From Crambe crambe (Eukaryota; Porifera; Demospongiae; Poecilosclerida; Crambeidae), in NCBI GenBank assembly GCA_963924555.1, contig OZ004595.1, positions 2,728,001 to 2,792,000 on the forward strand: a stretch of DNA of 64,000 nt, given 5' to 3'. Every line of letters begins with the position of its first letter. Positions within the stretch are counted from its first letter, which is position 1. A program made the position numbers and the translations under genes. The notes under the pieces were generated by a model. The model did no database searches. It saw only the letters and a program-made list of their open reading frames with translations, and was not told the origin of the DNA. Of this stretch, positions 25,357-55,677 are shown one piece after another.

Positions 25357-27673
25357 ATGGTACAGCGGGAGGAAAAAGGACAGGGGTCGACAATGTGGCC
25401 TATTCCACCTCTGAAACCGGAGCTCCACCTATTATATAGCTACTTGTGAAGGAAAAATTTGAAGCAAGTGATGATGAATGCATAATGTAAAAAGAAATAG
25501 AGAGAACATTGGCAGTGGTACGTATACACCCAAATGGTTACGTTCAGGATCCAAAAGCATTAAAGCACACACAGCACAATGGATTGTGATAGAAAACCCT
25601 ACCTCCATGCTCAACAAAGAAGTAACTGGGATTAGAAATTAAACCCAACACCCTAGAATCTCCACCTTTCAATCACCGTGAAGGGCACTATATGAATGCT
25701 TACTACAGTTGAAGCTCCAAGTGCTGAGTGTCCAGACACAATGGAATAGGCTATTTTCAAGAGAGTGGGGACTTGGACATATCAAAATCATGCTCTTGAT
25801 ATCCACAGATCAGCAGAGATGATGAGCTCCATGACATAGACAACATTAGCTAACAAGCATTTACCTGCATTGGAAATTGATTGAGGGGGTGAAGGCTGTA
25901 ATTAAGAAATTAGGTGACAAACTATAACAAAAATTAGGAATTTTATACCCAGATTTTTTCATTACCTCTAGAGAGATGAATGAACCAGGATGCAAAACAC
26001 AGTACACAAAATGGTACAGAAGCATCTAGGAGAAGACTTGGGAAAGAATGTGCTTCAAAGACTATCTTCCACCAAGTGGTGAATGTTCTTATGATGAACT
26101 TGAAGGTATACTAAAATAATCATTAGCTATATGACTATAATAGAGCCTCACAAGAGGAAGAAGATAATGAAGTTGACATGCTATCAAACATAGTCAACTC
26201 TAAGAATTCACACTGTAAAAATAAAAGTGTTTACTGCACACCATTTTATCCCAATACACACAGTGTTTTTGTTTTTGGTATGTGCAGTACACACAGTCAC
26301 TTTCGTTTTTACAGTGCACATCTTTCTTTATTGCCAATTAACACCTTGCTACATGGATGAAGTTCAAACCAATTCTGGAACCAGAGTTCCAACCCAATAT
26401 ATACAGCAATTTAGCTACCTGGGAAGGGAAAATTTGAAGCAATTAAATAGAGAGAATTAACATTCTCCTACATGTACGTAGTGTGGAAGAAAAAATCTCT
26501 CCTTTTAGTTATTGTCTATTGACTCTGAGCAACTTTTCTCTCTCTATACATTCAATGCACAGCATCAGGGCTAGCACCAACTAGCTATTTAAAGACTTAA
26601 TCTAAAGGTCACCTTCGTTTGAAGGCATTGAATTCAGCTAGCCTGCTGCTGCATGGCTTGCAGAAAACTGCAAGGAGAGAAGCATAAGTGACAGTTGAGG
26701 GTAAAATCAAAGTGTGTGATTTCTACCATCACACAAGTGGGATCAAAGATGATCACGGAAATTGGGGTGGGGGGAAGTGGTAGAAAGTGACAGTAGAGAG
26801 AGTATAGGCAGGGAGATTGGGGTGGGAGGAAGTGGTAGAAAGTCTATTAGTCTGATAATAGTGGTGGGAGGAAGTGATAGAAAGTCTGTTAGTCTGATAA
26901 TAGGGGTGGGAGGAAGTGGTAGAAAGTCTGATCTTAGTAGAGGAAGAGATGCTAAATGACAGAGCTAATCATACGCACTCATGAATTCAATTACGTACCA
27001 AAATTTTTTGTAATTTTGCAAACAGTTTTCTTGAAAGGGTGCAAAAAATAACAATAAAAATCACTCAGAATGCAATGCTAGCACTTGATAATCATCAAGA
27101 GCACCCATGTCATGGCCATGTGCAGGCATGGCAGCCTATTATTATGCTGCTATTCCAGTGAAACCCTATCATTATTATGCCAGCATATTAGCCCCATGCC
27201 TATTCACATTCAACCAATCATATAGCTAGTTATTAGTCTGGAATGCAATAATAATATGTAATTTCTATCATCACACGTCGATAGCTAGCTAGCTATCGAT
27301 TTGATTGCTGGATAGAAAATTAGCTAATGTTGAAGGGACATTTTTAAAACTCTCTTGAGCAATGGGATCTCTCTCTCTCAAGTGAGTTTTAGATGCACTG
27401 ATAGGAGCATTGCAAGCCTAGCACTTTGAAGAAACTGCTCATCAGCAAGAAAAAAAAGTTTAATTAAAGTGTCTTACATTAACTTTCATAGCTAGTTTAG
27501 CTATACGTACTTAGCTAGTACAAACTACAAAGTCATACTGATGCCATGACAACCTATTCATTAGTGAGGAATTCAAAACAGCTTAAATAAATTACAGCAT
27601 TCATATAAACTCAGTTCATTATTGCCCACAACACCCGTTATTTTAGGATCGGGGCCCTGCAGTGTACAGTGAA
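25357..27673. other. Intergenic, no gene seen
   Basis: No exon recognised on either strand. Two loosely similar stretches, 25420..25510 and 26360..26460, share GGAAAAATTTGAAGCAA-like text. A minisatellite lies at 26762..26940. Confidence 0.6.
26762..26940. repeat. Minisatellite, about 43-bp unit
   Basis: About four units with GGGAGGAAGTGGTAGAAAGT and TTAGTCTGATAATAG. The 65-codon frame across it is a by-product of a unit that happens to stay open. Confidence 0.85.
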
Positions 27674-28430
27674 ATGGCTGAAGCTCTCAAGAAACTTGAT
27701 GAACAGCTCAATTGTGCCATCTGTCTTGATACCAAACTTCTCCAGTGCTTCCATATCTTCTGTAGGCAGTGCCTTGTGAAATTAGTTGTGCGGGACAACT
27801 CTTACCCAGCCAATGGAGTGGCAGGCCTGCAGTCAGCTTTTCATATCAACCACCTCTTGGAAATCAGAGATTCAGTGAAGGAAGCAAAAACTCCAGCAAC
27901 AAGTCAGGAAGTGGTAAAAAGTGACAGGACACACCCCATTGCAAAGGTTACTCCTAACTGCTTTGAGCATGCTGACAAAGAACGAGAACTTTACTGTGAA
28001 ACTTGTGAAGACTTAATCTGTTTGAAATGTGCTATCAAAGGAGGCAAGCATCAAGACCACAATTATCAACCATTGAATGATGCTTTTGAAAAGTATAAAG
28101 GTGAGATGACGTCATCGCTGGAACCAATGGAGAAGAAGTTAGCCACCATAGGCACTAAGGCAGTTAGATAAAACTCATGAAGGCAGGAGGACTGAGTTGA
28201 TTGGTGAACTAGACCGAATCACTCAGAGAAAACTGAAAGGCCTGGCAATCCAGAGGGACCAGATGGAGACTACTCTGGTCCAGCTGAGAAGCTCTCTTGC
28301 ATTTATCGACGAGAGTATGAAGACAGGCATTCAGGAAGAGATGCTGCAGATAAAAGAAGTGCAGGATTTCAACCAGGTGTATTGAAGCCTGACACAGAAG
28401 CAGACATCATATATACAGCATCACTGTAGC
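27674..28430 (+). pseudogene. Broken TRIM gene (RING fragment, B-box, coiled coil)
   Basis: From ATG 27674 the frame gives the start of a RING finger (CAICLD, then CFHIFCRQCL). The spacer between them is shortened, and the distal zinc pair (CPxC type) is missing after LVVRD. A B-box 2 zinc finger is intact near 27957..28070 (CFEHADKERELYCETCEDLICLKCA, then KHQDHNY). The coiled coil then starts, a frameshift near 28145 creates a stop at 28169, and the coiled coil continues in another frame (IGELDRITQRKLKGLAIQRD) to a second stop at 28382. A third frame still reads PDTEADIIYTAS, which is typical of the linker after the coiled coil. TRIM proteins are ubiquitin ligases, many in innate immunity; this copy has lost the ligase finger and is probably dead. 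Confidence 0.85.
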
Positions 28431-29701: not shown

Positions 29702-32700
29702 ATGGAAATGGCAGAGTCCAAGGAGTATTCCACTGTTGTCAAGTGTAGCAAGAAGCTGGAGATTGCTCTCAAGTCTGATAGAGATATAGCACAGTTTCTT
29801 CATGAGCAGGGACTCCTCACAACAGATGATTATGATATTGTCAGCAGTCCAACATCAAGACTCTCTCCTGCTGAGAAATCTAGCATACTGGTGGCTGCAA
29901 TCAGAAATAGAGTTGAACTCCATCTTCGCAATTACCATGTAGTGGTCAACTACATGCAGCAGAACAGCACAAGATACAGAGACATTATTGAGATTCTTGC
30001 TATGGAGTATCAGGGAAGTACAGATCCTCGAGCATCTCCCAAATTTTTCCCTCCAGCTGCTGTATTCACCCCTCAGGCACCACCGGGTATATGGAGAAAA
30101 CTAGATGTCGATTTTTAAGTTCATGTAATTGTTTCCCATAGTTACTACCCAACCTGAGCCTGATGCTGCTCCTTCACCAAATAAGTCCTTCAGGGGGATG
30201 ACCACTGTGACAGCCACACCCACCTCTTCTCCTATACCCAATTCCTCTCCTTCACCAAGATCTCCCTCTGAGGGAATAACCTCTATGGTGAGCACCTCAC
30301 CTCCCAGCAGCACCACAGTATCCAATAATAATACAGGTGAGCTCAATATGGATTACTACATTGTGTGACTGAGAGCCTTTACTATGCATTTTAACCAGTT
30401 GGGATAACATAATATGGTCACATGACTTGTGACCAATCAGATCCTCTGAGAAGTATGCTTTAGGACTAGCTATGACCTTCCAGCCTCAGTCCCTAGTGCT
30501 TACAGTAAGTGAGCACCTTAATATCTTCTTTTATAGACTTTAGCATTTCACTAGTTATATTGGGTTTCAAAAAGGAAAACTTCAGAAATTTACCTCATCA
30601 TTAAAGATCACTCTGATCTAGCTCCATATATTTTAATGCATGGTGCACTCAAATGATGATGCTACAGGGGCAGCGGAACCGGCCCGGCAGACCCAGCAGC
30701 TGCCGGACCAATATTGAAAAAACCAGTTACTAAAGCCTACAGTACTCTAAGTAATCTTAGACTATAGCTAGTCACAATCAAGGAATTTCATTGGTCCATT
30801 TGGTGAATTCTATTCACTTAGAATCACGCCTTATGGCACTTAGAATCACGCCTTATGGCACTTAGAATCACGCCTTATAACACTTAGAATTCACTTGCCC
30901 TAGGTAAACCCGGTAAAGATGGTCATTCCAATTGGTCCAATTCTAGCAACGCATCGTGGTGGCCACGGTTATTGTTTCTAGGTGCGCTCTGATTCATGTT
31001 TGTTGCATTTAAAAACCATGGTTATTGTTTTCAAGTGCGTGTTGAGGTAAGTTAAACAACTCCAGTGATTGGCTATAGTCTAAATAAGTTAGACACCTCG
31101 ACCAACGGGATCTACGGTCTGTTTAGAAACCTTCGGGCCCTTAGTAGCGCCCTCGCTGCGCTCGGGACGCTACAGCCCAGGGCTCTCAGATTTCTAAATA
31201 GACCGTAGATCCCTTGGTCTCATTGTCTAACTATTATTTAGAACACAGTTACCTTGTTTCTTTAGTAACCTACCAAGAGCCTATGGCACTTAGTAAACCT
31301 AAAGGCACTTAGTACCCTGTGGTGGGCAGCAATTAGAAATATTCTTATGAATCACATATGAATCCATAGTAACCAACCAACCCTGCCTGGTGGGCGTATG
31401 TTAGAAGACTTATCAAAAAATCAAAAAACCATTATGATGAAGCTAGTTTCTCGCCTCCTGACGCTAGTGAGTACCAACTAAAGCCTAGAAAAGAGTAACA
31501 AGGTACCGAAGGTAGCGTAGAAACCTTAGTTCATATTTTCAAGCATATAAGCTAGAAAGCCTACCTTAGTTCTGGTGATTTTCAGCTGCTGGATTTTCCG
31601 TGCATGAAGCTTTCATGGCTGACTAGCTAACTTTAGCGATTCATTTGAAGCCTTTCTACTTTAGTCTAAGTTCCAAAACTATGTTGCTATGTTCTGAATA
31701 AGTTAGGCAACTTGACCAACGGGATCTAAGTTATTTAGAGACCCTTGGGCCCTTAGTAGTGCCCTCGCTGCGCTCGGGTCACTACAGCCCAGGGCCCTCG
31801 GGTCTCTAAATAACTTAGATCCCTAGGTCTTGTTGTCTAACTATTATTGTAAACCTGGGCTAACAATGTCACTAACAGACTTGGTGTTTTACTGATATTG
31901 GTCAATAATCATTCTTTTGGTTCCCAAACACTCCTAGCTACTCAACACTTGAAATTTCTGGTCTCCAATAATCTTAGAATTTTAACATAAAACCTCCTCA
32001 GATTGCACCAGATTGTAATGGACCCCAAAATCCAAAAATTTCCTGAGGGGCATGTCCCCAGACCCCCCTAGATGGCGCGTTTTGCACGCTCGCTATGGTA
32101 CAAAAAATCTCTGCCCCCCACTTTTCAGTAGCTGTCTCCACCCCTGAAGTCGCAGCTTTCTACAATCTCTCGCGCTTCAGAGCGATCACTAATTAACGCA
32201 CACCAATTCGCTGCCATGCCCATAATGATCGAAATGGGTTTCTGGCAAGAGATTTAGCAGAGGAAAAAAAGGATAATGGATTCAGCTAGCTAGCTAACTA
32301 AAAATAAACTAGCTTGTAGTTGAGCAGGCAAAATCATGATTACTGTTCCTTAGGCCATAGCTACAGTGGAATAAATTACGAAGAATATACCATGGCACAG
32401 GCACAATTGTACCATTTGATGACTCTGTAAATATTTTTACAAGAATGAAGCAGAGAATTCAGACTTTAATGTAGAGTAGGAATGAATACCAAATGAGAAA
32501 TCATAGCATTGCAAAAAAATATTTGTTTTCAGGCTTCAAATAATATGGCTTGCAATAAATGGTTTTTTCCTGATCAATGAAAATTTGCTTACTCCACCTC
32601 TGTGCTATAATGCTCGTGCAGGCACATTAAAACATTTAGAGCTAGATAAGAGTGAACTTAATGTCCATGTGTGATCTTTTAGCCTGCACATTTTATCGTA

Positions 32701-33765
32701 TTAGGTGAATCTACTACAGCGGAAGAGAGATTTCCTTATCTGAAAAGTGAGGATCTATCAGATAAAGAAAGGGATCAGCTGAAGGGAAGACTCCTAGTGG
32801 ACAGTAAAGACATCCGAAGTAAATTCTCATCTCTACTCTTCCACACAGAAAGGTCCTTAACTAGTGAGAAAGTGTCGATGCAATCCTTGAAGGTACTTCT
32901 CTCGCCTTATAAAATATCCTATCACGAATCTGATGATGAAGTCAGCAAAATATTGCTGAAGGCTTTTCACTACTGCTCATTGTTTAATTTTCAAATTGTA
33001 AAAGATATCATCGATCATCTTGGGACTAATGATGACAAGGAGAGACTAGCCAAATACGAAGCAAGTTTCAAAGAATATTGCAAGCGCAGACTTTGTGAAG
33101 TACCTAATGAAGTACTGAACCCTGGTGGATCGGGAGAGGAAAAAGAACTCTGTGTTAAGACAGATAAAATTTTTGACGTTCCATTGGAAGATGTTTGCAT
33201 TATACAATCGGAGATATCAAAGATATTGGAGAGGCCCATATATTTGAAAAATATGAAGGAGGGATGCGTCGAACTCGTTTTTTATCTCATTCATGAGCTG
33301 GATGAAATTTTTCCTTTGAGTAAGAAACAAATGAATTTTCTGGAAAGTATTGGAGTGTTAAGAATGTACGATGAACACAATGAATACTTCTCTCTGTCAA
33401 AAGGTATGTAGGTATTCTGTACAGCATGTAGCTACTCACATTATAAAAAATTAAGCTACGGATATCAGGCTCAGCTGATACTGGTAGCTTATCATAAGTA
33501 AATTCTGTAACAAAAATGAAATTGTCCCATGACTGAAGTTTATATTGACAGTTCAGACACAAGTATGCATGAACAATTGACAGTCAAACGAATATTTCTC
33601 TCTCCATGCCCAGATCTTCCCTCCCCTACCCTCTTCCTGGAAGAACCGAAGGCTGCCCTTCAAGTGAAGGGTGGTGGTGGTGATGATTATGAGGTAAATA
33701 CGGGCACTTGTTCAACATCCAGCGGAAGCACATTAGCTTCAGCTGACATCTTTGATGAGTCTAAG
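29702..33765 (+). CDS. CARD-type adaptor module, copy 2
   Basis: Four exons with consistent phases: 29702..30086 (phase 1 end), 30142..30336, 32705..33403, 33539..33765 (phase 0 end). Exon 1 encodes about 95 residues with a death-fold pattern (ALKSDRDIAQFLHEQGLLTT, then ILVAAIRNRVELHLRNY), best read as CARD-like. Exon 2 is a Ser/Thr/Pro linker. Exon 3 is the same helical death-like exon as in copy 1 and exon 4 the acidic tail. Intron 1 is 55 bp. CARD-type modules are homotypic adaptors that recruit caspases, kinases or MAVS-like proteins, so a signalling role is inferred. The last exon has no stop before its GTAAGG donor, a donor conserved with copy 1. The next acceptor in phase 0 is at 39241, at the ZNFX1 gene. 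The sum of these exons plus 39242..44998 is 7263 nt, exactly 2421 codons. Confidence 0.75.
31088..31231. mobile_element. Hairpin MITE, GTTAGACA-ended family (duplicate of 897)
   Basis: Identical to 897..1040 except for a base in the right arm (CTCATTGTC instead of CTCGTTGTC). Carried here by the segmental duplication, not by an independent insertion. Confidence 0.8.
31702..31841. mobile_element. Hairpin MITE, GTTAGACA-ended family (duplicate of 1511)
   Basis: Matches 1511..1650 apart from one loop base (GGGTCACTAC instead of GGGTCGCTAC). Carried by the duplication. Confidence 0.8.
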
Positions 33766-34728
33766 GTAAGGAGCAAATGATAAGTGTGTGGATCTACCAG
33801 AAGAATCTTATGTTTAATCATTCTGCACATAATTATTCCTTAAGGACACTTGGTACTAAATTTTTGTGGGTATATTTTTATTCGGCAGGTATAGTATAAA
33901 GATATTTTGCTCATTAATTTTTGTTGCCATCAAGCATGATAGCATTATTCCCTAACTCATAAAATCAGAGAGTGCGGTAGCACTCTCTAAGTAGGGATGG
34001 CAGGTCAAAGTCCATAGGACAGTATAAACTAAAAACTCTTCTTTCTCTTCTACCCTTACTCTACAGGTTCTCAGAAGGCTACAGTGAATTATTATATCTA
34101 CAAAGAAGAGAGGAGAATGTTCAAAAGCCAAAAATTCATTCGCTAACATAAGAAAAAAACGAGTTCTAAAATTGACCTTTCGTTCTTTTTCTTTATAATA
34201 ATAATGTATAAGATCGACGTACCGACTTACTGGCTATAGTCATCAAAATTCTGCTTTGGCCATCTGTTAGAGCGGCACCTAGAGGCTGATCTTTTGCTAT
34301 TAGTTTTGACTAAGGCTCTACTTCACTATTCGATAGCACTCGGAACACTGCTAATCTTTCTACGCCATTTTGAAGGGGGCGGGGCATGTGGGAGGAGCCA
34401 CGTAAGCTTAAGTTTAGCTATAGCCAAGGTCTTCATTTATTATCTGATGATGTTCCAGTCACTCCTTGCTGAATTACAGTACAGATGCTCATCCTATAGT
34501 AGCATTATAGCCAGTACTTGGCTGTAGTGTAGTCAGCTCACTTCACCATGCCGTGTACATGTCATTTACATTGCTGTTGCTGTAAAGTTTTATATCAACA
34601 AAACTTAAATAGCTAAACAAATTCTTCAACCAGAGACACTGTATGTACCTACAAAAGAGGTTTATGTAGAGCTGGCTTTGTATAGTACTGTACTGTAGCC
34701 TCCCTCATTCAACTTCAAGCACTAAGAA

Positions 34729-34850
34729 AAAGGATAGAAACAAGTGAGCGTAAAAAATTTCTTCAAATAAAAAGGTTAAGTAGGGATAGCCTAAAATCTA
34801 GCTGGGCTATCTATAATGTGCTGCAGCCTCGTATGAAAAAAATCTTCGCG
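34729..34850. mobile_element. Single arm of a GTAGGGATA/G fold-back element
   Basis: Reads AAAAAGGATAGAAACAAGTG, then AAAATTTCTTCAAATAAAAA and GTAGGGATAG, like the left end of the element at 35231, but no matching right arm follows. Truncated copy. Confidence 0.6.
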
Positions 34851-35230
34851 ATATTACCTCATAAAAGGGGTGGGGCAATTAATAGCAGTTCTCCTCATAT
34901 AACACCTGCACAGGATGTGGCCATTTGATGGCATCCACTATTATGATCACTACACCAAATGCATAAACTTCCCATACTCCTCCCTCAAGCAAGACATACG
35001 TACCATCTCAATAATTATTTCAGTGATCACATATGTAACAATTAGCTAATGCTGTTCACTTTTTAAAATGTTCACTCCTTTCAGTACTCCATTACACTGC
35101 AGATGATCATCCTTCAAACTCTCCTCCCTGAACAGAATGAAATACTGTCTGATCATTAAATAAATTTAGTTCAATCAAGGAAGCCTTTAGTGTCTATCAA
35201 TTTTCATAATCACAAAGAAAAAGAATACAA

Positions 35231-35679
35231 ACAAGTGAATGCAAAAAATTTCTTCGAAATAAAAATGTGAAGTAGGGATGCTATTATAACTGCAGCTTCA
35301 TTATGAAAACCAAGTACTGCAGCATCGAAGCAGTATGGCCCAAAAATCTAGCTGGAATATGTATTATAACTGCATGCAAGAGAGTGAACTTAGTGAAGTG
35401 ACCCTTACCCATCATCAAGTACAAGATACTATTCCTACTTCACTCCCATGATCAAGGGCCAAGGGAGTGAAGTAGGAATAGTATCTTGTACTTGATGATG
35501 GGTAAGGGTCACTTCACTAAGTTCACTCTCTTGCATGCAGTTATAATACATATTCCAGCTAGATTTTTGGGCCATACTGCTTCGATGCTGCAGTACTTGG
35601 TTTTCATAATGAAGCTGCAGTTATAATAGCATCCCTACTTCACATTTTTATTTCGAAGAAATTTTTTGCATTCACTTGT
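35231..35679. mobile_element. 449-bp near-perfect fold-back element
   Basis: Arms of about 217 bp (35231..35447 and 35463..35679) around a 15-nt loop, with no mismatch seen in the stretches compared. Outer ends ACAAGTGAATGCAAAAAATT; then GTAGGGATG; centre CTATTCCTACTTCACTCCC. Transcribed, it would form a very long double-stranded RNA stem. Confidence 0.95.
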
Positions 35680-35821
35680 ATGAATAGGTATGACTTGTAC
35701 ATAGTTACCATAATTATGTTGACTGTATGGAAGCTGAGAAGAACAAGCTCTGCAGTGAAAGCTTTGCACTGAAAACTGTCTGCAGTAAAAAAAATCTCTG
35801 CATTGAATCTCTGCATTGAAA

Positions 35822-36126
35822 CATAACTCCCGACTGCTTCATCCTATATCTACGATCTTGGTACCATATTGAAGCTCTACACCTGATCTAAGGAATGGTA
35901 TTATTCAAATTGAAGTAATGCTCAAGTCCTAACTGTCAATTGCCGTTCGAGTGCCTTCGTGGATGCTTGACAGCCATAACTTCCGACTGCTTCATCCTAT
36001 ATTTACGATCTTGGTACCATCTTGAAGCTCTACACCTCAGGTAAGGAATGGTATCGTTCAAATTGATCAAATTGAAGTAAAGCTCAAGTTTTAACTGTCA
36101 ATTGCCGTTCGAGTGTCTTCGTGGAC
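35822..36126. repeat. Two-copy direct repeat, about 152-bp unit
   Basis: Both units carry CATAACT-CCGACTGCTTCAT, TACGATCTTGGTACCAT and GTCAATTGCCGTTCGAGTG. The second has a short extra ATTGATCAA. No open frame; no family recognised. Confidence 0.85.
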
Positions 36127-36351
36127 GACTCAAATTCTCAAACGCTTCGTAGACAGCAAAGTTAGTTTATACACTTCATAGACGCTATGTAGATGTTTCT
36201 TAGACAACATTAGAACGCTACAACGCTTCGTAGACACTGTTGAGAAAAAAAAACTGTCTTGCTGAGTTGCGGTGGGCGTGGTAAGGATATTTGGTAAAGG
36301 GTTGTTCTTGACATCTCTAGCCATGCCCCTTGAAAAAAGTGTGCAAACAAG

Positions 36352-36692
36352 TGAGAGTAAAAACATTTCTTCTAAATGAAAGAGTGATGTAGGCTTGAGT
36401 ACATGACTATAAAAAGTACGGAAACAAGTTGCTGGCTATGTACTGACCCTACATCGCTGCGTGGACTGCTCTGCTAACTATTATAAAATTGACATAAACC
36501 CTACATCGCTGCAAGGTGTAGCCAAAAAGGATAAGCAATGTAGGGTTTATGTCAATTTTATGACAGTTAGCAGAGCAGTCCACGCAGCGATGTAGGGTCA
36601 GTACATAGCCAGCATCTTGTTTCCGTACTTTTTATAGTCATGTACTCAAGCCTACATCACTCTTTCATTTAGAAGAAATGTTTTTACTCTCA
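36352..36692. mobile_element. 341-bp fold-back element, same family ends
   Basis: Arms of about 145 bp. Outer text TGAGAGTAAAAACATTTCTT matches the style of 35231 and 8382. The inner arms contain a nested repeat of CCCTACATCGCTGC. Non-coding. Confidence 0.9.
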
Positions 36693-37235
36693 TTTGCTAT
36701 TTAATTGGAGGCCAAGGTGTTGTGTGAAATATCCAAGTAGCTACTAGCCAATGGGGCTGAAGTTATGCTGTTATTATAATGAAAGGAATGCGGTTAATAA
36801 GTGCTAGCTATATAGATCAATGTATTGATGAACTCTGAATTACGTATTAGCACTCTTAAACATGGGGATGCTGGTTTAAGAATGATGTAATGTGAAAACT
36901 TCAAACTCATGGAGCTATATGTATGTGGAAACTTTTTAGGAATTGGCTTTGTGAATGCACTACAGTAGCTAACTAGCTAGCTAGCTACCTTTGCCAATGC
37001 TCCAGCCAGGGACACAGTAATGAAATCAGGGGGTGCAATAATTATGCTAGTTATCACCTGCAGATAATCTGTGACAATGCAAGCTATAGCAGCATAAGTA
37101 GCTATAAATGTCCCTAAAACAAATATTAGTAGTGTTGCTATTGTAGTTATCTGGTAGCTAGTGTGTTGGCTTGCTAAGCCTGAAGATTCACGTTTTAGTC
37201 CTGATTTGACCAATTTTTCATGATTTGTAGCTATT

Positions 37236-37425
37236 GCCATGATTTTAACTGTGATGTAGCTATTGCCATGATTTTAACTGTGATATAGCTATTGGCATGG
37301 ATGATTTTAACTGTGATGCAGCTATTACCATGATTTTAACTGTGATGCAGCTATTACCATGATTTTAACTGTAATGTAGCTATAGCCATGGATGATTTTA
37401 ACTGTGATGTAGCTATTGCCATGAA
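37236..37425. repeat. Minisatellite, about 29-bp unit
   Basis: About seven units of GTAGCTATTGCCATGATTTT followed by AACTGTGAT, with small variants. No spacer structure, so not a CRISPR-like array. Confidence 0.9.
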
Positions 37426-38038
37426 ATAGCTGAATGTGTACATATGCACATGTACACACTGATGTGCACATTATTAGCTATATAAATTCAGTTAGCTAGC
37501 CAAATCTTTTGAACTGAAACTTAATCAAGACTTCTTACACAGCATTTTTCACAGTTAGCAGACTTAGCTATAGCTAATTTTGTTGATATTAATGACTAAT
37601 TATTTCACACAACACCCTAATCCAACTTTCAATACAAGTCTTAATTTCATATGAGCAATATGAAAAGAATACCTCATCCGTATTAGGTATGTGCTAATTA
37701 CAAATAATTCTTGCTATTAGCTATCATCATAATTCATTTGCTTTTTGGAGATCAATCTTTGTGGCTCATCAATCATATAGTAGTAGTGCAGACAAGTAAG
37801 ACTACATTATACTTGTGTTATATTTTCCTCTTTCTAATCGGTGTACTCTGTATAAATGAATGAAGTTCTCTTCATTTCCTTTCTGTGATGAAGTTGCCTA
37901 CCTAGTACAGAAAGTCTGCTGAACATAAAAGGTCCACAGTTCACCACATGTACCTTCAATCCATACCAAAATATAGTTCAAAACTAGTTCTTAGCTATTG
38001 CAGTGATTTAATATCAGAATGATATCCAGAATGATGTA

Positions 38039-38843
38039 GCGTAAGGCATCAAATTTCGACCGCATCTTAAATCGACCGTTTTAATGACACGGGAAGTTTA
38101 CGGTAGTAAACAAACGTAAATGGAGTCTAAGAAAATGGCTGCATTGGAAAATGTATGGGAAAAACTTACAAGCTATGGAGAGAAAACAGGACTTCAAGAG
38201 AACTATTTATCAGCTGTAGTATGAAAGTAAGTTGCTAGCTCACGTTACCCATCCCCATGGCTCCAGAAGATTGCTCAAAAGCTATAGGAAAACTATCGAC
38301 TTATGGTAGAATGGTAACTGCTGCAGAAGCTCTCCTTTTTGTTGGATTCAGATAATAATGCTCAGAAACAGTCTTCATCGGTCTGTGTTTCATATTCTAG
38401 TCATATCCATCCGTACAGCCCTCGCTATAACAAAGAGCAAATTCGACTGAAAATTGTGAAGCCATTTATGATAGAAAAGCTTCGTTCATTTTTGTTATAA
38501 TGATGTATTTTATAGCATAAAAGTATCTTTTTAAGGGCCCTTAAGGCCCTGACATGTAGTGGAGCAAAACTTTAAAAGAAAAACTGGGGTGGACGAATTT
38601 ATTGATATTAGATTTTCAACGGGTGGTCGAAGATAGATATTGGTGGACGATTATTGGTTCTTTAGTTGATGTAGTAGATTCAGTGTTACAAAATTTCTAT
38701 CCAATTGTGGGGGGAATGATTTATATGACGTTAAAGAGGAAGGAAATATCTTCCTTATGGTTCTTGTTTGAGGCTTTGACGACCGTCGGTGAAGACGATA
38801 TGGCACGAGGAAAATAGTCTGGCCGAATAGTGATGCCTTACGC
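38039..38843. mobile_element. TIR element flanked by TA (mariner-like target site)
   Basis: Perfect 13-bp terminal inverted repeats GCGTAAGGCATCA (38039..38051) and TGATGCCTTACGC (38831..38843), each bordered by TA, the target site used by Tc1/mariner-type elements. Inside are short open frames (34 codons from an ATG near 38120; 71 codons at 38602..38817) with no recognised transposase motif. Probably a non-autonomous or decayed element. Confidence 0.7.
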
Positions 38844-38906
38844 TAAAGGTGTCTGATTTTAGTGCTAATTGTCTACTATAGTCTAGTAGACTATTAGCTA
38901 AACAGC

Positions 38907-38945
38907 TAAAGGGGCACCATGTCTAGTAGACATGGTGCCCCTTTT
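38907..38945. other. Perfect 17-bp stem, 3-nt loop, followed by T6
   Basis: AAAGGGGCACCATGTCT and its exact complement flank AGT, then a T tract. It looks like a bacterial terminator, but the setting is eukaryotic. It could be the decayed core of a fold-back element or a small Pol III-type end. It lies 290 bp before the ZNFX1 exon. Confidence 0.5.
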
Positions 38946-39235
38946 TTCGGTACATAGGACTTTTGTGTTCTGAATCTAGATGAATGCTGCATGGGATTTC
39001 ACCATGGCAATCACTGTGCAAATTCTAAAGAGCTGTGATGCAACGACTGAAAAGTTTTGAGAGTTTTAATTATGATAACGTCCACAGATTGTTTAATTTA
39101 TAAGGTTGAACCACTCACAATGTTCGGTTAATTAATTAAACTTGTGTGTCTATATTGACATTCTAGTTAATTAAAAACCTTATTTTTAATTAGTTATTAA
39201 TTAGTCAATAATGAGTTCATTTATATGTAACTTTT

Positions 39236-42200
39236 ATGCAGGAACAGTATCTACATGATCAAGAAATAGGACAAAATAAAGGTCTACATGGAGGGAATGG
39301 TAGGAGGCATCATGGATATCACAGGAAGCATGATGGTAGTGATAGAAGATATGGGGATGACCACAGGGGACATGATGAAGGTTGGGTATGGCAGGATGAA
39401 TATGGTGATGATTACATGGTAGAACAAGAAGGTGTGCATGGATGGATTGGGGGTGACCGCAGAGGGAGTGGTGAAGGTTGGGGATGGGAGGGTGAAGGTG
39501 ATGGAAGTGTTCATGGTGGTCATGGTAGGGTGCGTGGTAGGGGTGGACGGGGACGGGGACGTGACAGTGGCGTCAGGCAGCATGATGGTGGTGTCAGGCA
39601 GCATGGTGGTGGTGTCAGGCAGCATGGTGGTGGTGGTGGTAACACATTCTGCCTATCAGATGAGGAACTTCAAACCTTATCCGGAAGTATCGATTCTAAT
39701 GAAGTGCTAGCAAGTGTTAGTGTTAATGAAGTAAAGTTCTTGAATACTTACAAGAATCAGCGATACTGCAATCATCCCTTGAAATTGAAACAATTGATCA
39801 AGCTTCTGCATTTGCTCACAAGCTGTGAAGACCAGAGAGCTGCTTCAATGATGCTGGCACAGATTTTATCAGCTAGTGGTGAATATGCTTCATTCATGAT
39901 GAAAATCGATCAGCTCCTCAAAAATATGGCATTGGAAACTCGTGACCATATCAGAAAAGAAAACCCTCGTTATATTAGCTATCTCGTAGACATAGGTCTA
40001 GTGGCAATCAATACTGTTCCAACAACAGTTTACTCAACATATCCTGTGACTGTCATGGAAGAAACTATAAGGGAATTAACTGAAATAGGAGAAAAAATGC
40101 AAGTTGTTATGGCTAAGTTCGATAATTTAAAAACTGCCTTTAAATTAGCTAGATCAGTGGCTATTAAGGAGAAGATGAGTAAGAACAAGGAAAAGCACTC
40201 TAGTACTGCTGAACTTGAACTTCCTGAGCCTTTCACTGAGCTACCAATACTGCCCACACTGGAAGAGATGCACTCAAATAAGGTTTTTCTCAGGAGTAAC
40301 AAAATTAGAGGTGCGTACAAAAGCTGGCAGCATTACTTTGATGTGCAGTTCCGGCTCCTTCGTGAAGACTTTATCCAACCTTTGAGAAAAGGAATCTCAG
40401 TGTACTGTGACTCTGGTCCTACTCTAAGAAATGCTGATATCCGCATATATGAAAATGCTAAAATCCTGAATCCAGTCTGCCTCTTCACTGGCATGGGATT
40501 CCAGCTTCGTTTCGACTCAACCAAGCTGAAGCATATCAATTGGGAGCACTCCAGAAGGCTTATTTTTGGATCTTTATTGTGTCTCTCAAATGACGATTTC
40601 GATAAATGTATGCTCTTTGTAACAGTCGTTAAGAGGGATCCTAAGACTCTCAAAGATGGATTGCTCACTATCAAATTTGAAAATGATGTCAACGGCTTTC
40701 GAATTGACCCTACAGAATCATTCAAGATGGTCGAATCAACAGCTTACTTTGAAGCCTATCGTCATGTGCTTGAAGGCTTGCAGGAAATGTCTAGATTTCC
40801 CGATGTATTGCCAATGAAGAGCTATATTGTTGATTGCCAGTTGTGTAATGTTGAGACTCCGGCATTTCTGAACATGCCCCAAAGACCACCAATTTTTGAC
40901 ATGAACGATATCCTTAATAAATCAGGTGAAAGAAGAAGACGGGCCTTTGACATAACAAAATCCTCCAACTGGCCCAGTGTAGATAAAACAGGACTTGATA
41001 AATCCCAGCTCGATGCTCTCAAGATGGCACTCAGCCAAGAAGTCTCAGTTATTCAAGGTCCACCTGGCACGGGTAAGACTTTCATTGGCTTGAAAATTGT
41101 GGAAGCTTATCTTAAAAATCGTACAGTTTGGGATCCTGAAAAGACCTCTCCCATTCTCGTGGTGTGCTACACTAACCATGCCCTGGATCAGTTCCTAAAA
41201 GAAATTCTTGATACTCCAATCAATGATGAACCACCAAACATAATTCGTGTTGGTGGTCGATGCAAAAATGAAGCTTTAGCCGAATGTATTCTCAGCAAAA
41301 AAGTTCGGGACTGTCGTGCTAGTAGACAATTGCCACATCGTTTGCATAAAGATGTTTCCAGAGCACTTGCTGTCATGTATGATAACCAAGAATCTATAGA
41401 CAAAGTGATGAAAATGTGTGACGCAGAATCCAAAAATAATATCATCGGTTTGTCCTATCTTGGTCAAGTGATGGGTCAGCTGCATTATGAGCAATTGAAA
41501 TATGGAGCAACTTCAGAAGCAGGGAAAGAAGTGGAGGTGTGGCTTGGACTCTGGTACCCAGAATCAGAACAAGACTTCAATTTAATGGAGTTAGCAGCTG
41601 ATGATCCAGAACCCTCTCCAGACAAAGTACTAGCTGCCGATTTGGAGGATGAAGATGGAGAAGATGAAGCTGAACTGATCGAGGTGGATGCTGAGGCCCG
41701 TGTCCTTGAAGAAGGACGAATGATTGAAGGGGAGGTTGTGGAGTTATCAAGAAAGACTGTCACTCCAGAACCCAATGCCCAACAATCTCAGAAATCTCGC
41801 CAAAGCAATGCCAAAACTCAGGATGGGTGGACAACAGTTCAGTTGTCTGGTGCAAAAAAGAAGTTCATAATCCAAGGCTTCAAAAACAAGCCTATGACAA
41901 AAGAAGAAGCCACTCGAGTGAGGAACCTGTGGAGGCTAAACAGCAAACAGAAGTGGCGGTTATATTTGTATTGGATGAATGAATACACAAAACACTGCAA
42001 GGACAGAGTTAATCAGCGAGCAGCTGCTTACAATGAAGCATGCAAGGCATACAGCGAGTGCCAGAGAGATGTGGATAGCTTTGTAGCACGAGGAGCAGAT
42101 GTCGTTGGGATGACCACCATGGGGGCTGCCAAGTATCACCACATGTTGAAAAACCTTCACCCAAAGATTGTTATCTTTGAAGAAGCTGCTGAAGTCTTGG

Positions 42201-44998
42201 AAGCACACATAATCACATCTCTTGCCCCCAGTGTACAACAGCTGATCATGATCGGAGATCATAAGCAACTCCGCCCAAAGCCAACTTGTTACAATCTAGA
42301 AAAGGATCACAACTTAGCAATTTCACTCTTTGAAAGATTGGCTAATAATGATTTTCCCTATGCTTCTTTGGAAATCCAACACAGAATGCGACCTGAAATA
42401 TCCAGACTCATCCATCCAAGCATTTATGACCATCTCATTGATGCTGATGAGGTAAAGAAGTACAAGCACGTGGAAGGAGTAAGCAAAGATGTCTTCTTTA
42501 TCAACCACAGCCATCCTGAAGAGAGAAATCAATTTCGTGACATGTCATCGAAGGTCAACTTATTCGAAGCCGAGTACACAGTCGAACTCTGTCACTACCT
42601 TTTGAAGCAAGGCTATCCTCCAAAAGAAATTACCATCCTGACCATGTATCGAGGTCAGCTCTTTGAACTGAGAAAGAGAATGAAGAGGGAAGACTTTGAA
42701 GGAGTACGTGTGGCAGCTGTTGACGACTTTCAAGGAGAAGAGAATGAAATAATACTGCTATCTCTCGTTCGAAGTAATTCCGATGATAAAATTGGTTTCT
42801 TAAGTGTTGAAAATCGTGTCTGTGTTGCTCTGTCCAGAGCTAAGATGGGGCTCTATGTGATTGGTAATCTAGCCATGCTCACTAATAAATTTGACACCAA
42901 GTGGCCTGAGATATTGCAAGGCCTTCAGAAAGAAAATTGCATTGGAAATGGCTTGCCACTTCATTGTGTTGTTCATCCAGATGATAAATCAGTAGCATCC
43001 AAGCCAGAAGATTTCAGAAAACGTCCAGAGGGAGGATGCTCTAAAATCTGTGGGACCAGATTGAAGTGTGGTCATGCATGTCACCGAATCTGTCATCCAA
43101 AGGACAGAGATCATCTGTATCATACTTGCACTAAAGTCTGCATGAAACCTTTGAAATGTGGACACAACTGCAAAGGAAAGTGCTATCAGTGCAAAAAAAA
43201 TGGCATATGTTTGCCTTGCTCTCAAAGTGTGTCGAAAATCCTTGCATGCGGTCATCCTGTTACAGTTCGCTGCTCAGATAACCTTGGAGTGATAGTTTGC
43301 TACATTTCTTGTGAAGAAATGCTTCCTTGTGGTCATCAGTGCCAAAATAAATGCTCACAACCTTGTTCTATCCATTGCAAGGTAGGTGTTAAAAAACTAC
43401 TTCCCTGTGGGCATACTGTGATGGTTCCTTGCTTCAAAGATCCCAGCTTAGTGGTTTGCACAGTGAAATGTGGTGAAATACTGGAATGTGGAGATAAATG
43501 TGTAGGTACATGTGGCAAATGTCAACAGGGACGTTTGCACATGAAGTGCAAGCAACAATGTGGTCGTGACTTAGTGTGTGGCCATCCCTGTGACTTTCCC
43601 TGTGCCTCCATATGTCCTCCTTGTTTGAAGCCTTGCAACAACTACTGCATCCACAGTCAATGCCCCAAGAAGTGCTTTGAACCTTGTACTCCTTGCCTGG
43701 AGAAATGTGAGTGGAGATGTCCTCACTTCGAGTGTACAAAGCCTTGCGGTCAGCCTTGCAACCGTCCCCCTTGTAACAAGCCTTGCAAAAAGGTATTGAA
43801 ATGTGGCCATGAATGTATTGGTCTCTGTGGAGAAAGATGTCCCAGCAAGTGTCGAGTGTGTAACAGAGATGAAGTTTGTGAGATTTTCTTTGGAAGTGAA
43901 GATGAAAATGATGCCCGATTCATTGAGCTTCGAGATTGCAATCACATCTTTGAAGTCTCTGGTCTTGATCAGTGGATGCGGACTGATACTTCAGGATCTC
44001 AATCTGATCCTGATATGCCTCCAGAGTCTAATCAAGTGTTGTTTAAAGTGTGCCCAAGATGTATGACTCCAATACGCAAGTCTCTCAGGTATGGTGACAT
44101 CATCAAAGAAGTATTGAAGGACATCAATGCTATCAAGTACAAACAAATGGAAGCTTCACCAAACTTGTCATCAAAATGGCAAGAGGTGAAGGCAGAAATC
44201 AAAAATCTCAACGATACATCATACATCAGGGCTGAGCTTCTAGCCATCAGAAAAGAAACAAAGCAGAAGAGTGATTCCACTAATCGTTTCCGTGCCGCCA
44301 CGTTGGAAGTGCAACTTACCATTTTGCCCAAAATACAGAAGCTTAAAATCCTGGATGCTAACTTGAAACCACTTTATGGTAAACTCAATATCTCAGGTTG
44401 TAGTCCAGAGTATATCCAAGAGGAGTTAGAAGTCCTGAAAAAAATTTTGATGCAGGAGTTTTTGTCAGCTCAGGAAGTCTCTGATTGTGTGTGTGAATTA
44501 CGTCGACTGACATGTTCGGCAAAGCTTTTAGAACTGCTCAGCAAAATACGAGAGAAACAGATCAAAATCTTGCCAAGTGACCTCAGGACAATCACTGAGA
44601 GAATCAAAGAGGTCCATTACTGTGGGTGGAAGAATGCAAAGATGAGTGAAGAGCAGGAAGAAGGAGTTACGAGGTTAATAAGAGAGATGATCATTAAATA
44701 TAAAATGGATGCATTAACGGAAGAAGAGAGAATTAAGATTGTGTCAGCCATCGGTCTTTCGAAAGGACACTGGTACAAGTGTCCCAACGGCCACTACTAC
44801 TGCATAGGGGAGTGTGGTGGGGCTACCCAGAGGTCCCGATGTCCAGACTGCGGGAGCACCATAGGAGGAGAAGGTCACAGGCTTGCAGAAGGAAACAGGC
44901 ATGCTGGAGAAATGGATGGTTCGCAATATGCAGCGTGGTCAGATGCCGCCAATATTGCAAACTTAGATCCAGCTCTGATGGCCCAACTCAGGATCTAA
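39236..44998 (+). CDS. ZNFX1: ZNFX1-like helicase A, plus-strand copy
   Basis: 1920 residues if started at ATG 39236. Residues 1-135 are Gly/Arg/His-rich with RGRGGRGRGR and three GGVRQHG-type repeats. Then follow the ZNFX1 region (HYFDVQFRLLREDFIQPLRKG near 365) and an SF1/UPF1-type helicase: Walker A GPPGTGKT near 608, EEAAEVLE near 981, GDHKQLRP near 1007, VDDFQGEEN near 1161 and LSRAK near 1200. NF-X1-type Cys/His fingers occupy about 1270-1545, and an RZ-type finger about 1840-1875 (GHWYKCPNGHYYC, CPDC). The end, SQYAAWSDAAN, is typical of ZNFX1. Animal ZNFX1 binds RNA, helps sense dsRNA and acts in small-RNA pathways. ATG 39236 has a poor context and lies inside a splice-acceptor-like TTTTATGCAG, so the real exon may begin at 39242 and be joined to the adaptor module ending at 33765. 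Confidence 0.93.
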   Translation: MQEQYLHDQEIGQNKGLHGGNGRRHHGYHRKHDGSDRRYGDDHRGHDEGWVWQDEYGDDYMVEQEGVHGWIGGDRRGSGEGWGWEGEGDGSVHGGHGRVRGRGGRGRGRDSGVRQHDGGVRQHGGGVRQHGGGGGNTFCLSDEELQTLSGSIDSNEVLASVSVNEVKFLNTYKNQRYCNHPLKLKQLIKLLHLLTSCEDQRAASMMLAQILSASGEYASFMMKIDQLLKNMALETRDHIRKENPRYISYLVDIGLVAINTVPTTVYSTYPVTVMEETIRELTEIGEKMQVVMAKFDNLKTAFKLARSVAIKEKMSKNKEKHSSTAELELPEPFTELPILPTLEEMHSNKVFLRSNKIRGAYKSWQHYFDVQFRLLREDFIQPLRKGISVYCDSGPTLRNADIRIYENAKILNPVCLFTGMGFQLRFDSTKLKHINWEHSRRLIFGSLLCLSNDDFDKCMLFVTVVKRDPKTLKDGLLTIKFENDVNGFRIDPTESFKMVESTAYFEAYRHVLEGLQEMSRFPDVLPMKSYIVDCQLCNVETPAFLNMPQRPPIFDMNDILNKSGERRRRAFDITKSSNWPSVDKTGLDKSQLDALKMALSQEVSVIQGPPGTGKTFIGLKIVEAYLKNRTVWDPEKTSPILVVCYTNHALDQFLKEILDTPINDEPPNIIRVGGRCKNEALAECILSKKVRDCRASRQLPHRLHKDVSRALAVMYDNQESIDKVMKMCDAESKNNIIGLSYLGQVMGQLHYEQLKYGATSEAGKEVEVWLGLWYPESEQDFNLMELAADDPEPSPDKVLAADLEDEDGEDEAELIEVDAEARVLEEGRMIEGEVVELSRKTVTPEPNAQQSQKSRQSNAKTQDGWTTVQLSGAKKKFIIQGFKNKPMTKEEATRVRNLWRLNSKQKWRLYLYWMNEYTKHCKDRVNQRAAAYNEACKAYSECQRDVDSFVARGADVVGMTTMGAAKYHHMLKNLHPKIVIFEEAAEVLEAHIITSLAPSVQQLIMIGDHKQLRPKPTCYNLEKDHNLAISLFERLANNDFPYASLEIQHRMRPEISRLIHPSIYDHLIDADEVKKYKHVEGVSKDVFFINHSHPEERNQFRDMSSKVNLFEAEYTVELCHYLLKQGYPPKEITILTMYRGQLFELRKRMKREDFEGVRVAAVDDFQGEENEIILLSLVRSNSDDKIGFLSVENRVCVALSRAKMGLYVIGNLAMLTNKFDTKWPEILQGLQKENCIGNGLPLHCVVHPDDKSVASKPEDFRKRPEGGCSKICGTRLKCGHACHRICHPKDRDHLYHTCTKVCMKPLKCGHNCKGKCYQCKKNGICLPCSQSVSKILACGHPVTVRCSDNLGVIVCYISCEEMLPCGHQCQNKCSQPCSIHCKVGVKKLLPCGHTVMVPCFKDPSLVVCTVKCGEILECGDKCVGTCGKCQQGRLHMKCKQQCGRDLVCGHPCDFPCASICPPCLKPCNNYCIHSQCPKKCFEPCTPCLEKCEWRCPHFECTKPCGQPCNRPPCNKPCKKVLKCGHECIGLCGERCPSKCRVCNRDEVCEIFFGSEDENDARFIELRDCNHIFEVSGLDQWMRTDTSGSQSDPDMPPESNQVLFKVCPRCMTPIRKSLRYGDIIKEVLKDINAIKYKQMEASPNLSSKWQEVKAEIKNLNDTSYIRAELLAIRKETKQKSDSTNRFRAATLEVQLTILPKIQKLKILDANLKPLYGKLNISGCSPEYIQEELEVLKKILMQEFLSAQEVSDCVCELRRLTCSAKLLELLSKIREKQIKILPSDLRTITERIKEVHYCGWKNAKMSEEQEEGVTRLIREMIIKYKMDALTEEERIKIVSAIGLSKGHWYKCPNGHYYCIGECGGATQRSRCPDCGSTIGGEGHRLAEGNRHAGEMDGSQYAAWSDAANIANLDPALMAQLRI

Positions 44999-48184: not shown

Positions 48185-51100
48185 TCATTTTTTTCTGCGC
48201 TTTCTCCCTTTTGGATCAGTCAAAGGTTGATCTGCACAAAGAGTGAAAACTTAGTGGTCATATAATGTGACAATCCTTATAATACCTTTTATTGGTGCTG
48301 CTACTACTGCTGCTACTGCTGTTGCTACTGCTGTTGCTTCTGCTACTGTTGTTGTTGCACTTCTCGTTTCCTGTGTCCCATGGCCAGCAGGTTTTGTCTT
48401 GCTCCTCTTCTTCTTTGCCTTTCCTGGTAAAGGAGCTGCCATCACTGAAAACAAATATAAACATCTATTATTGAACAAAACAGCACTCATAGTACATTAT
48501 CATACACAATAATTATTATAGTTAGTGGAAAGTTACTTTCTGCTCGTTGTTTTTTAATATCGATATGCCTTGATTTCCGCACTTCGATCTCATTGGCCTG
48601 TATGCTTCCATCATAACTACCTGCATCCAGAATGAACGATGAATGGCATCTGATGAAACTACACATACATAATTAAAGACCACCCCTAGGGATAGTAGGG
48701 CTAGGGGCTAGGGCTAGGACTATTCCTTCACACATGTACACAAAGATGACATGTACACACACACATATGCACACACAGAATACTATGAGATAACACATTC
48801 AATCACTTTTAAAATAGTTATATTGTCTTAATTACCTGTACACTCTGGACAAGAGACTCTTAAGGTTCCTACTTCACAGACTGGAACACAGTAGTAGTGA
48901 TTTCCATTGCATCTTTGCCAGCTCCCATTCAAAATGTGTGGATGGAAACACTCTATCTCTCCAACAAGGTCATTTGTGAACTCAAAGATTCGGATGCCTT
49001 TGGTGAGGAGTTTGTCATCCAATGACTGTGAGTGACGAATGAAATCTGCTCTTTGTATTCGTAGCTTTGGATCAGATTCATGCTTCTCCAAAAATGCTTT
49101 TTCAGTGGCACATGCTCGATGGAATTGAACGATACGGACAAAGCTTTGCTCATAAGCATACATTTTCGCTTTGACACACAAACGATAGAATTCACTCATT
49201 AAATCAGAAAGGATTTGAAATGAGAGCTTTGTTTCTTTCCTTGAAATCTTCTTCCCAATAAGGTTTAATATTCGTTGGAAGGATTCGTGAGTGTGACCTA
49301 CTAATAGGACATACTTGAGAATTTTGGCAAATAAATAGAATAACAGGTATTCCTCTGGATTAAATTTAGATGAAGAAGTTGAAGCCAAATAATAATTAAT
49401 CACCCACTGCATACCACGAGGATTTTTTAAAATGACTGCAGAGTTTTGTTCAAACTCTCTCAAAGTAGATTCAAAAAGTTGGTCTAAGAGAATCTTCTTT
49501 TGGTCAGATGTTTCTTGCTGTATGGTTAAATCTTCAAGTCTGGTTCTCACAGCATCAACGTGCAGTAGTGACTCCTTCATACGATTGCCATAGCGATAGC
49601 TACAACTGAAAGGTGAGCAGCACTCTGGACATTGAAGAGGACTTACTTCATATTCAGGCAAGCTCTCAACATATTTATCCAAATCTTTTACTGCAAAGAT
49701 ATGACTGCAAGGCAACTGGATATAGCACTGGTCTGGGGATATTGTCTTTGAAATCTTTAGTTGACTCATAAATCTATCCTTATGACACTCAGGACAGATG
49801 GAAAGACAGGGTTCTCCACACAGGCCAACACATCGATGGCGACCACACTTCAGTTTTTTATTGCACTTCTCATTACAAACGGGCCTATCACATTGCTCAT
49901 GGCACTGTTTTTTGCATTTATAATGTGGACAGGACCAACCACATGGCTCATGGCACTGAAGATACTCAGTATTGCAGTCATAGGGGACTTTGTTGTGTCT
50001 ACATTCAAGAATTCTACTAGTCTCTGAATGATTATCAACATTCAATGGGTGAGTTGAGCCCAGACACTTCATTCTTACCAGTTCACCACAAAAATGCTTC
50101 AACTTTATTGAAGAACTGCATGGCTTGTGGATGCGTGTCAAACAACAATCTGAACACGTCCCCCTGCACAGATGCCCACAGGCTAATGGAGACCGGCAAA
50201 TCATATCACAAGGCTGCTCTTCAGGTGTAGTAGAACAACGTACATTGTGCTGATGCCCACAGGGATAGGTTTTCTTGGTACGAACTTGGCATTCAAGCTC
50301 AGAGCTGCAGTCGTCACAACATAGTTTAGTGCAAGGGTGGCCACAACTCATCAACTTTTCGCACTTCTTTTGACATGGCTGAAAGTCTTGGTGACACATT
50401 TTTCTAAGCTTATGCCCCTGATTACAGGTCCACTCCATATTCACCTGACATTTCTTTGTGCATTCATCTCCACACCTGTTCATACAGATATGTCCACAAT
50501 TTAACTTCTTTTGACATGGTCGTTTGCACTTGATTTTCTGCAGGTTAGTTCTCTCAAAGCACGAGATTTCAGTCTCATGCTTGCAAGCTGGCAGAGAGAC
50601 TTGGATTTTCGTGTGGCATTTCACTTTGGCACTTTCACCACATGTTGTCTCAACTTTATGGCCACAGTCCTTGAACTTTATTGTGACTTTCTTAAAACAT
50701 GACTGCTTATCAATACAAGATCTGCCACATATGGCAGGGCATTTATGGCCACAAGCTAATTTCTTTGGACATGGCTCGGTGCAGGTGTAATGCTTGGGGT
50801 CTTTTGAACACGAAAGATTGGCTGTGTGCCCACAAGGTAATTCTCTTAGACACAACTCAGTGCAATTGTAATCATTGGGGTCTTTTGAACACAGAAGATT
50901 GGCCGTATGACCACAATGTAATTTCTTTTGAAACAACTCAGTACAAATGTACTGACTGGGGTCTTTCGAGCACATTAGCATGACTTTGTGACCACACTTT
51001 AGGGTCCTCTCAACTTTAGTTGTGCAAACACACTTTTGGTAGCAATTTAGTGTGCATGGATGTCCCAATTTACACAGTTTTCCACATGGCATCTTGCATA

Positions 51101-55391: not shown

Positions 55392-55677
55392 TTTAGATGT
55401 GCTGCATTATAAAATTATTTAATTATATAAATTTTTGTCCAATAGTTTTCACAGATTATTATTTATTATGACACAATTGAAGAGACTACTGTAAGTCAAC
55501 ACAAACTAAGCAGTAAATTTAAAAGCGATAATATTATAGTGATATAACTATAAAGAGTAAGCAAAAAAAATATTATTTCCATAAGTATCCTATAAAGTGG
55601 ACTTAGCCTTAACTTGTACCAGTTCTGTTTTTTTGGTTTAGCTTTTCCTAAATTGTTTGTTTCTTTTTGTTTTGTAT

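Follow-up and report, generated by a model that had tools for sequence, protein, structure and literature searches.

The window analyzed here comprises 64,000 nucleotides (C18:2728001-2792000) of the Crambe crambe genome (143 Mb in 119 contigs), and its forward strand carries five proposed exons, at 29702-30086, 30142-30336, 32705-33403, 33539-33765 and 39242-44998, which join with phases 1, 1, 1 and 0 and zero internal stops. A preliminary description of this DNA had assigned exactly 2421 codons to these exons, and we reproduce both the sum (7263 nt, including the stop) and the open frame; when exon 4 begins instead at an acceptor at 33613, the chain is 7188 nt, or 2396 codons, in the same frame. 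Exon 1 (29702-30086; 128 codons plus 1 nt) starts MEMAESKEYST and encodes a CARD-like domain, exon 2 (30142-30336) is a Ser/Pro/Thr-rich linker with phase 1 at both ends and no stop at its joins, and exon 3 (32705-33403) specifies a 232-residue module with a helical half and a probable TRADD-N half. The tail encoded by exon 4 (33614-33765, with a longer form from 33539) ends ..DIFDESK at a conserved phase-0 donor. A proposed intron of 5.5 kb (33766-39241), which is repeat-rich, leads to exon 5 (39242-44998, stop codon at 44996-44998), which Pfam identifies as a ZNFX1 helicase.

A first copy of the adaptor (copy 1) lies upstream on the same strand. Its exons 2 and 3, together with their introns, occupy 1-3230 and are 99.4% identical to 30192-33418; a genome match places its exon 1 just before the window (C18:2727511-2727894), and its exon 4 (3649-3879) has about 70% identical DNA and the same donor. 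This exon 4 is a candidate for joining the downstream sacsin-like gene found by Pfam (10446-24869, forward strand), which has an acceptor-like ..AAATTCAG before 10446, in phase 0 and 3 nt ahead of ATG 10449, and which ends in C-terminal DnaJ-like (below cut-off) and HEPN domains. The duplication, spaced 30.19 kb (1-3230 and 30192-33418; C18:2709883-2731230), runs from a sacsin-like gene through adaptor exon 3, its 5' end lying inside the sacsin gene and its 3' end at the point where older copies of about 70% similarity adjoin, and it looks like the product of gene conversion or unequal exchange. That exons 1-3 belong to a 99.4% identical duplicate, and hence to a recent exchange, counts against reading adaptor and helicase as one gene. 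Elsewhere in the window, an ORF at 27647-28171 has a RING and B-box appearance by eye, resembling TRIM proteins, and two further long ZNFX1-like ORFs lie on the reverse strand (48828-55406 and 55743-61385), one with a long zinc-finger array and the other closely matching the window helicase.

Families and neighbors of the adaptor exons

Both the CARD-like exon and the exon-3 module belong to large families in this genome. The CARD-like exon has 97 genome matches and is conserved across 14 aligned copies. Its predicted structure has six helices, with CARDs among the best structural matches at low confidence: Foldseek returns zero matches at E<=0.001, and the best 50 rows are mostly globins, although the CED-4/CED-3 and CARD9 chains reach the top probability, 0.51 each. 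The CARD-like label given in the preliminary description is therefore supported weakly, by this model. Exon 2 scores -9.4 bits in a codon model trained on four coding pieces and is unsupported in any frame, which counts against the one-gene reading; nearly its whole length lies inside the 99.4% identical duplicate (from 30192).

At least 153 genome matches were found for the exon-3 module. TRADD-like_N (PF20694) is detected, below its cut-off, in 5 of 22 module members (best E 0.0034), at about residues 158-215 in four and 163-192 in one; the window copy itself has no PF20694 match. PDB profile searches gave nothing relevant, the best values (0.47 and 0.018) being to unrelated proteins. The structure model of the 232 residues (pLDDT 43) is too poor to use. 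The exon had been called death-like, and we prefer to describe it as a helical region followed by a probable TRADD-N domain, since its second half weakly resembles PF20694. Within 1.5 kb of module copies lie AIG1-like GTPase, ubiquitin-repeat and Kelch partners, so that the family appears as a large expansion with exchangeable downstream effectors (ankyrin, GTPase, ubiquitin, Kelch and sacsin). No viral contig encoding the module was found.

When 85 of the 97 CARD rows and 58 of the 153 module rows are taken in, a CARD exon is followed by a module on the same strand in at least 11 pairs (10 CARD exons) and on the opposite strand in 1. The reverse order, module before CARD, occurs in at least 7 pairs (3 CARD exons), all in the C10 arrays, and counts against the one-gene reading. 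One CARD-like exon (L066, C20:117508-120837) has, by eye, immunoglobulin-like ORFs within 1.5 kb downstream.

We also surveyed the neighbors of module rows listed on seven contigs, using 21 ZNFX1-like and 27 sacsin starts that were grouped by eye, some of which are perhaps one gene. At least 4 of the 27 first sacsin pieces are preceded, on their own strand, by a listed module no more than 12 kb away; the genome has 103 SACS matches in about 25 genes, again grouped by eye. Among the ZNFX1-like starts, a listed module within 12 kb upstream is seen for the window copy and for 0 of the 20 others, which counts against the one-gene reading. Two sacsin first exons without an in-frame ATG, C6:3266350-3268350 (L096) and C9:4199880-4201750 (L097), are preceded within 2 kb by a TRADD-N-type module and are apparent further fusions; the C9 sacsin gene looks broken. 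The genome may thus have a tendency to join whole genes to the adaptor cassette.

The tail donor, the proposed intron and the start of the helicase

The exon-4 acceptor chosen in the preliminary description, ...GACTGAAG/TT with the exon starting at 33539, is poor, with a pyrimidine at 9 of 15 positions. The site TTTCTCTCTCCATGCCCAG/AT at 33613, which lies 75 nt further downstream, has 13 of 15, leaves the phase unchanged and has same-phase homologues in L071-L074 (L073 being cut at its AG); a third candidate, the AG at 33551, was discarded because it breaks the frame. The tail exon has 36 genome matches, most of them in a tandem array at C10:0.14-0.94 Mb. Its donor at 33765 reads AAG/GTAAGG, and in the 26 copies read (of 36 tail-exon rows) AAG is followed by GTAA in every case and by GTAAG in 25, with the qualification that the search motif itself demanded AAG and that L083, which failed the motif, was read by eye. 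Because it is conserved in this way, we take the donor to be real, and the earlier observation that no stop precedes a conserved phase-0 donor is borne out. Directly behind the donor, 21 of the 26 copies carry VRSK and a stop, which counts against the one-gene reading; the sequence or frame differs in the other five (copy 1, L074, L086, L092 and L094).

In 28 of 36 cases the tail exon is followed, on its own strand, by an ankyrin exon, at a distance of 2.3-3.8 kb in 27 of them, and both window copies are among the eight rows without a listed ankyrin exon. Of at least 160 ankyrin rows, 32 supplied the distances and the first 83 the start positions; in 76 of these 83 the alignment starts no later than residue 4, whereas the first Met is residue 14. 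Since similarity starts before the first Met, the ankyrin exon looks coding from its acceptor (TCACAG/GAC, phase 0, in L095) and fed by an upstream phase-0 exon. Exon 4 as a last exon was rejected in view of donor conservation and the ankyrin pattern, and from the sequence we conclude that the tail exon is internal.

The proposed intron (33766-39241) contains 41 ORFs of at least 30 codons, none exceeding 2.5 bits, where the 95th percentile of the null is 3.2. Its length, 5.5 kb compared with mostly 2.3-3.8 kb in the ankyrin genes, counts against the one-gene reading. An ankyrin remnant was considered and rejected because no ankyrin similarity is present in the intron at E<=10, the two window matches at that threshold lying elsewhere. 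Positions 38036-38850 form a transposon-like element with imperfect terminal inverted repeats and at least 44 genome matches, and palindromic stretches are visible by eye near 35270-35690 and 36350-36690. Eight possible first exons run from an ATG to a phase-0 donor; the longest (33 codons) falls within a transposon-like element. A rival first exon at 38120 was set aside because it lies in this kind of element, the one with at least 44 matches.

Exon 5 gives Pfam matches to ZNFX1 (PF25396, 3.5e-32), AAA_11 (6.3e-26), AAA_12 (5.1e-43) and ZnF_RZ (PF20173, 6.1e-22), and its layout is an RG-rich N-terminus, the ZNFX1 domain, an SF1 helicase, a Cys-rich array and the RZ zinc finger. Cys/His-rich repeats are evident in the translation, with no Pfam zinc finger besides RZ at E<=1. 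The helicase is intact over 1918 codons, with dN/dS values of 0.26-0.32 relative to the ZNFX1 copies L002-L004. Its acceptor at 39241, TTTTATGCAG/GAACAG, has a weak pyrimidine tract (9 of 15, under the filter that lists acceptors at 10 of 15 or more), which counts against the one-gene reading, and was accepted because it is homologous to that of other ZNFX1 copies; read in this way, the phase-0 acceptor directly at the helicase frame described previously holds, the open frame running into it. We likewise confirm that ATG 39236 overlaps this acceptor and has a poor context, so that splicing at the shared acceptor would remove it. The first in-frame ATG beyond the acceptor, 39416, was rejected as a start because 14 out-of-frame ATGs lie ahead of it and because its use would remove sequence that is coding in L003.

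In six other ZNFX1 copies (L002-L004 and L006-L008) an AG lies, by eye, 0-35 nt before the ATG in 6 of 6; these sites were left unlisted by the pyrimidine filter and look like the end of a 5'-UTR intron. In L002-L004 a TAA just upstream closes the frame and the ATG has a good context. The window copy lacks the ATG of the other copies, its distance from the acceptor to the shared GATCAAG being 15 nt rather than 20 nt, and its frame is open in phase 0 through the acceptor. A broken ZNFX1 copy on C16 is likewise open and without that ATG, sharing 147 bp with the window copy at 87%; over the first 22 codons, 4 of 5 codon differences are silent and the single gap is 3 nt. Among the matches listed, none to the CARD, module or tail lies near this copy, which counts against the one-gene reading, although the copy is broken. 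Upstream of about 39330, blastn finds no similarity to other ZNFX1 copies except C16, and for 39242-39448 the codon model ranks the proposed frame best (11.2 bits against 7.1 and -7.1). Broken ZNFX1 copies occur elsewhere in the genome, and L008 has an internal TGA.

One gene or several

The upstream donor thus calls for an exon in phase 0, the neighboring helicase for a start in phase 0, and we regard a single gene as the best account of this arrangement. We consider it probable from these features that adaptor and helicase are a single gene encoding a protein of about 2400 residues, in the order CARD-like domain, linker, probable TRADD-N module, tail and ZNFX1. The one-gene model proposed previously gains from the donor conservation, from sister copies facing other effector exons, from the loss of the helicase's own ATG and from the lack of another recognizable coding exon between the two parts; the 33765-39242 splice is itself inferred from sequence, and the junction is accordingly a predicted one.

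That two genes are present seems unlikely to us. The adaptor would then stop after its donor (..DESKVRSK and a stop) or end in an unrecognized 3' exon, and ZNFX1 would be translated from ATG 39236 or would have a short first exon of its own among the repeats. The stop lies 12 nt past the donor in the window and VRSK with its stop recurs in most copies, but the donor is kept in the five copies without it. Similarly, ATG 39236 is conserved in C16, although shared-acceptor splicing would remove this poorly placed codon and the out-of-frame ATGs ahead of 39416 disfavor a later start. A separate first exon could be drawn from the eight phase-0 candidates, and an adaptor end might use one of three AATAAA sites in the intron, although these are fewer than the 5.2 of shuffled sequence and the intron ORFs all stay within the codon-model null. 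A rather improbable alternative is that stand-alone adaptor and helicase coexist with a fused isoform, produced from another promoter or by alternative splicing. An alternative first exon could readily be employed, given that the other ZNFX1 copies apparently begin behind an intron in their 5'-UTR; against this, blastn finds nothing upstream of the window copy that resembles the 1.5 kb preceding L002-L004. We give very little weight to a decaying chimera, in which an accidental read-through or splice is transcribed and yields no functional protein. The recent exchange in exons 1-3, the broken state of other ZNFX1 copies and a ZNFX1 partner that is unique among the loci compared would fit such decay, but every exon is open and the helicase remains intact at the dN/dS values given above.

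The single-gene structure could have arisen if a ZNFX1 copy lying behind a TRADD-N-type gene had its 5'-UTR-intron acceptor taken over by the phase-0 donor of that gene, after which the ATG of the ZNFX1 copy would have been dispensable and then lost. Death-fold domains signal through assembly. By analogy with its family, the ZNFX1 part would bind double-stranded RNA and oligomerize, gathering the CARD and TRADD-N domains so that death-fold signaling is nucleated in cis, and a separate adaptor such as MAVS, which vertebrate ZNFX1 uses, would not be needed. The fused protein is thus likely to act by letting RNA drive its CARD and TRADD-N domains into clusters in cis. Whether the locus encodes a complete RNA receptor, with CARD and TRADD-N fused to ZNFX1 through acceptor capture, independently of RIG-I-like receptors and with sensing and signaling in one chain, is a more tentative proposal, to which we assign slightly less than an even chance.

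If the fusion is made, its product may be a self-contained RNA alarm protein and would provide a natural link of ZNFX1 to death-fold signaling outside vertebrates, suggesting that ZNFX1-to-CARD signaling is ancient or evolved repeatedly. Moreover, if our reading is true, the acceptor-before-ATG layout would leave ZNFX1 and sacsin genes well placed to receive a common death-fold donor cassette that itself duplicates, and cassette and acceptors together would constitute a general route to immune chimeras in this genome. A donor cassette combined with a 5'-UTR-intron acceptor is also a testable mechanism for the diversity of TRADD-N proteins in marine invertebrates, as an alternative or addition to the published retrotransposition.

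Comparison with known systems

Vertebrate ZNFX1 shares the ZNFX1 domain, SF1 helicase and RZ zinc finger with the window helicase and is not known to carry a CARD. As described in PMC12585102, human ZNFX1 meets MAVS through its ARM domain, and grouper ZNFX1 is a dsRNA receptor that oligomerizes without RNA bridging and acts through TBK1. Among the open-licence papers listed for ZNFX1 with sponges (microRNA or lncRNA studies) and for ZNFX1 or NFX1-type proteins with invertebrates, CARD or death domain, no such fusion is reported, and the words ZNFX1, TRADD and sacsin are absent from the accessible portion of a paper on sponge NLRs (PMC12909245).

The closest relatives by architecture are the Death-like/TRADD-N proteins with variable C-termini of Kaur et al. 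2021 (PMC8195603), which, in the main text of that paper, fall into NCOA6- and DEDD2-clade expansions. In Amphimedon, 357 NCOA6-clade TRADD-N proteins are reported, most with Death-like domains in front and with ankyrin or other C-termini, and the DEDD2-clade fusions include sacsin, AIG GTPases, polyubiquitin, Mov10, DDX60 and RLR-like partners, the last three in cnidarians and brachiopods (PMC8195603). As is proposed for the window gene, with its CARD-like and probable TRADD-N parts, these proteins combine an N-terminal Death-superfamily domain, TRADD-N and an exchangeable effector; lineage-specific expansion is common to both, and ankyrin, AIG GTPase, polyubiquitin and sacsin, all published there as TRADD-N partners, adjoin module copies here (PMC8195603). 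The suggestion that the locus represents an undescribed receptor type was therefore too strong, since Death-like and TRADD-N domains with exchangeable C-termini, RNA helicases included, are already published in that text (PMC8195603), and what is new here is the proposed combination with ZNFX1. The words ZNFX1 and NFX1 are absent from its main text, and retrotransposition is proposed there as at least part of the fusion mechanism (PMC8195603), whereas the proposed partner in the window gene is ZNFX1 and the arrangement of the locus points to a captured 5'-UTR-intron acceptor.

The layout proposed for the window gene, with a death-fold domain before an RNA helicase, is also that of RIG-I-like receptors, among them invertebrate members whose N-termini are grafted (PMC8998645). 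They employ an SF2 helicase and a C-terminal domain of their own, whereas the window gene has the SF1 helicase of ZNFX1; exon 5 gives no Pfam match to a RIG-I domain at E<=1 and a DEAD-box value of 0.047, below its cut-off. Because its helicase is SF1 and a RIG-I domain is absent, the window gene is not a member of the RIG-I-like receptors, although by analogy the fused protein would work like one.
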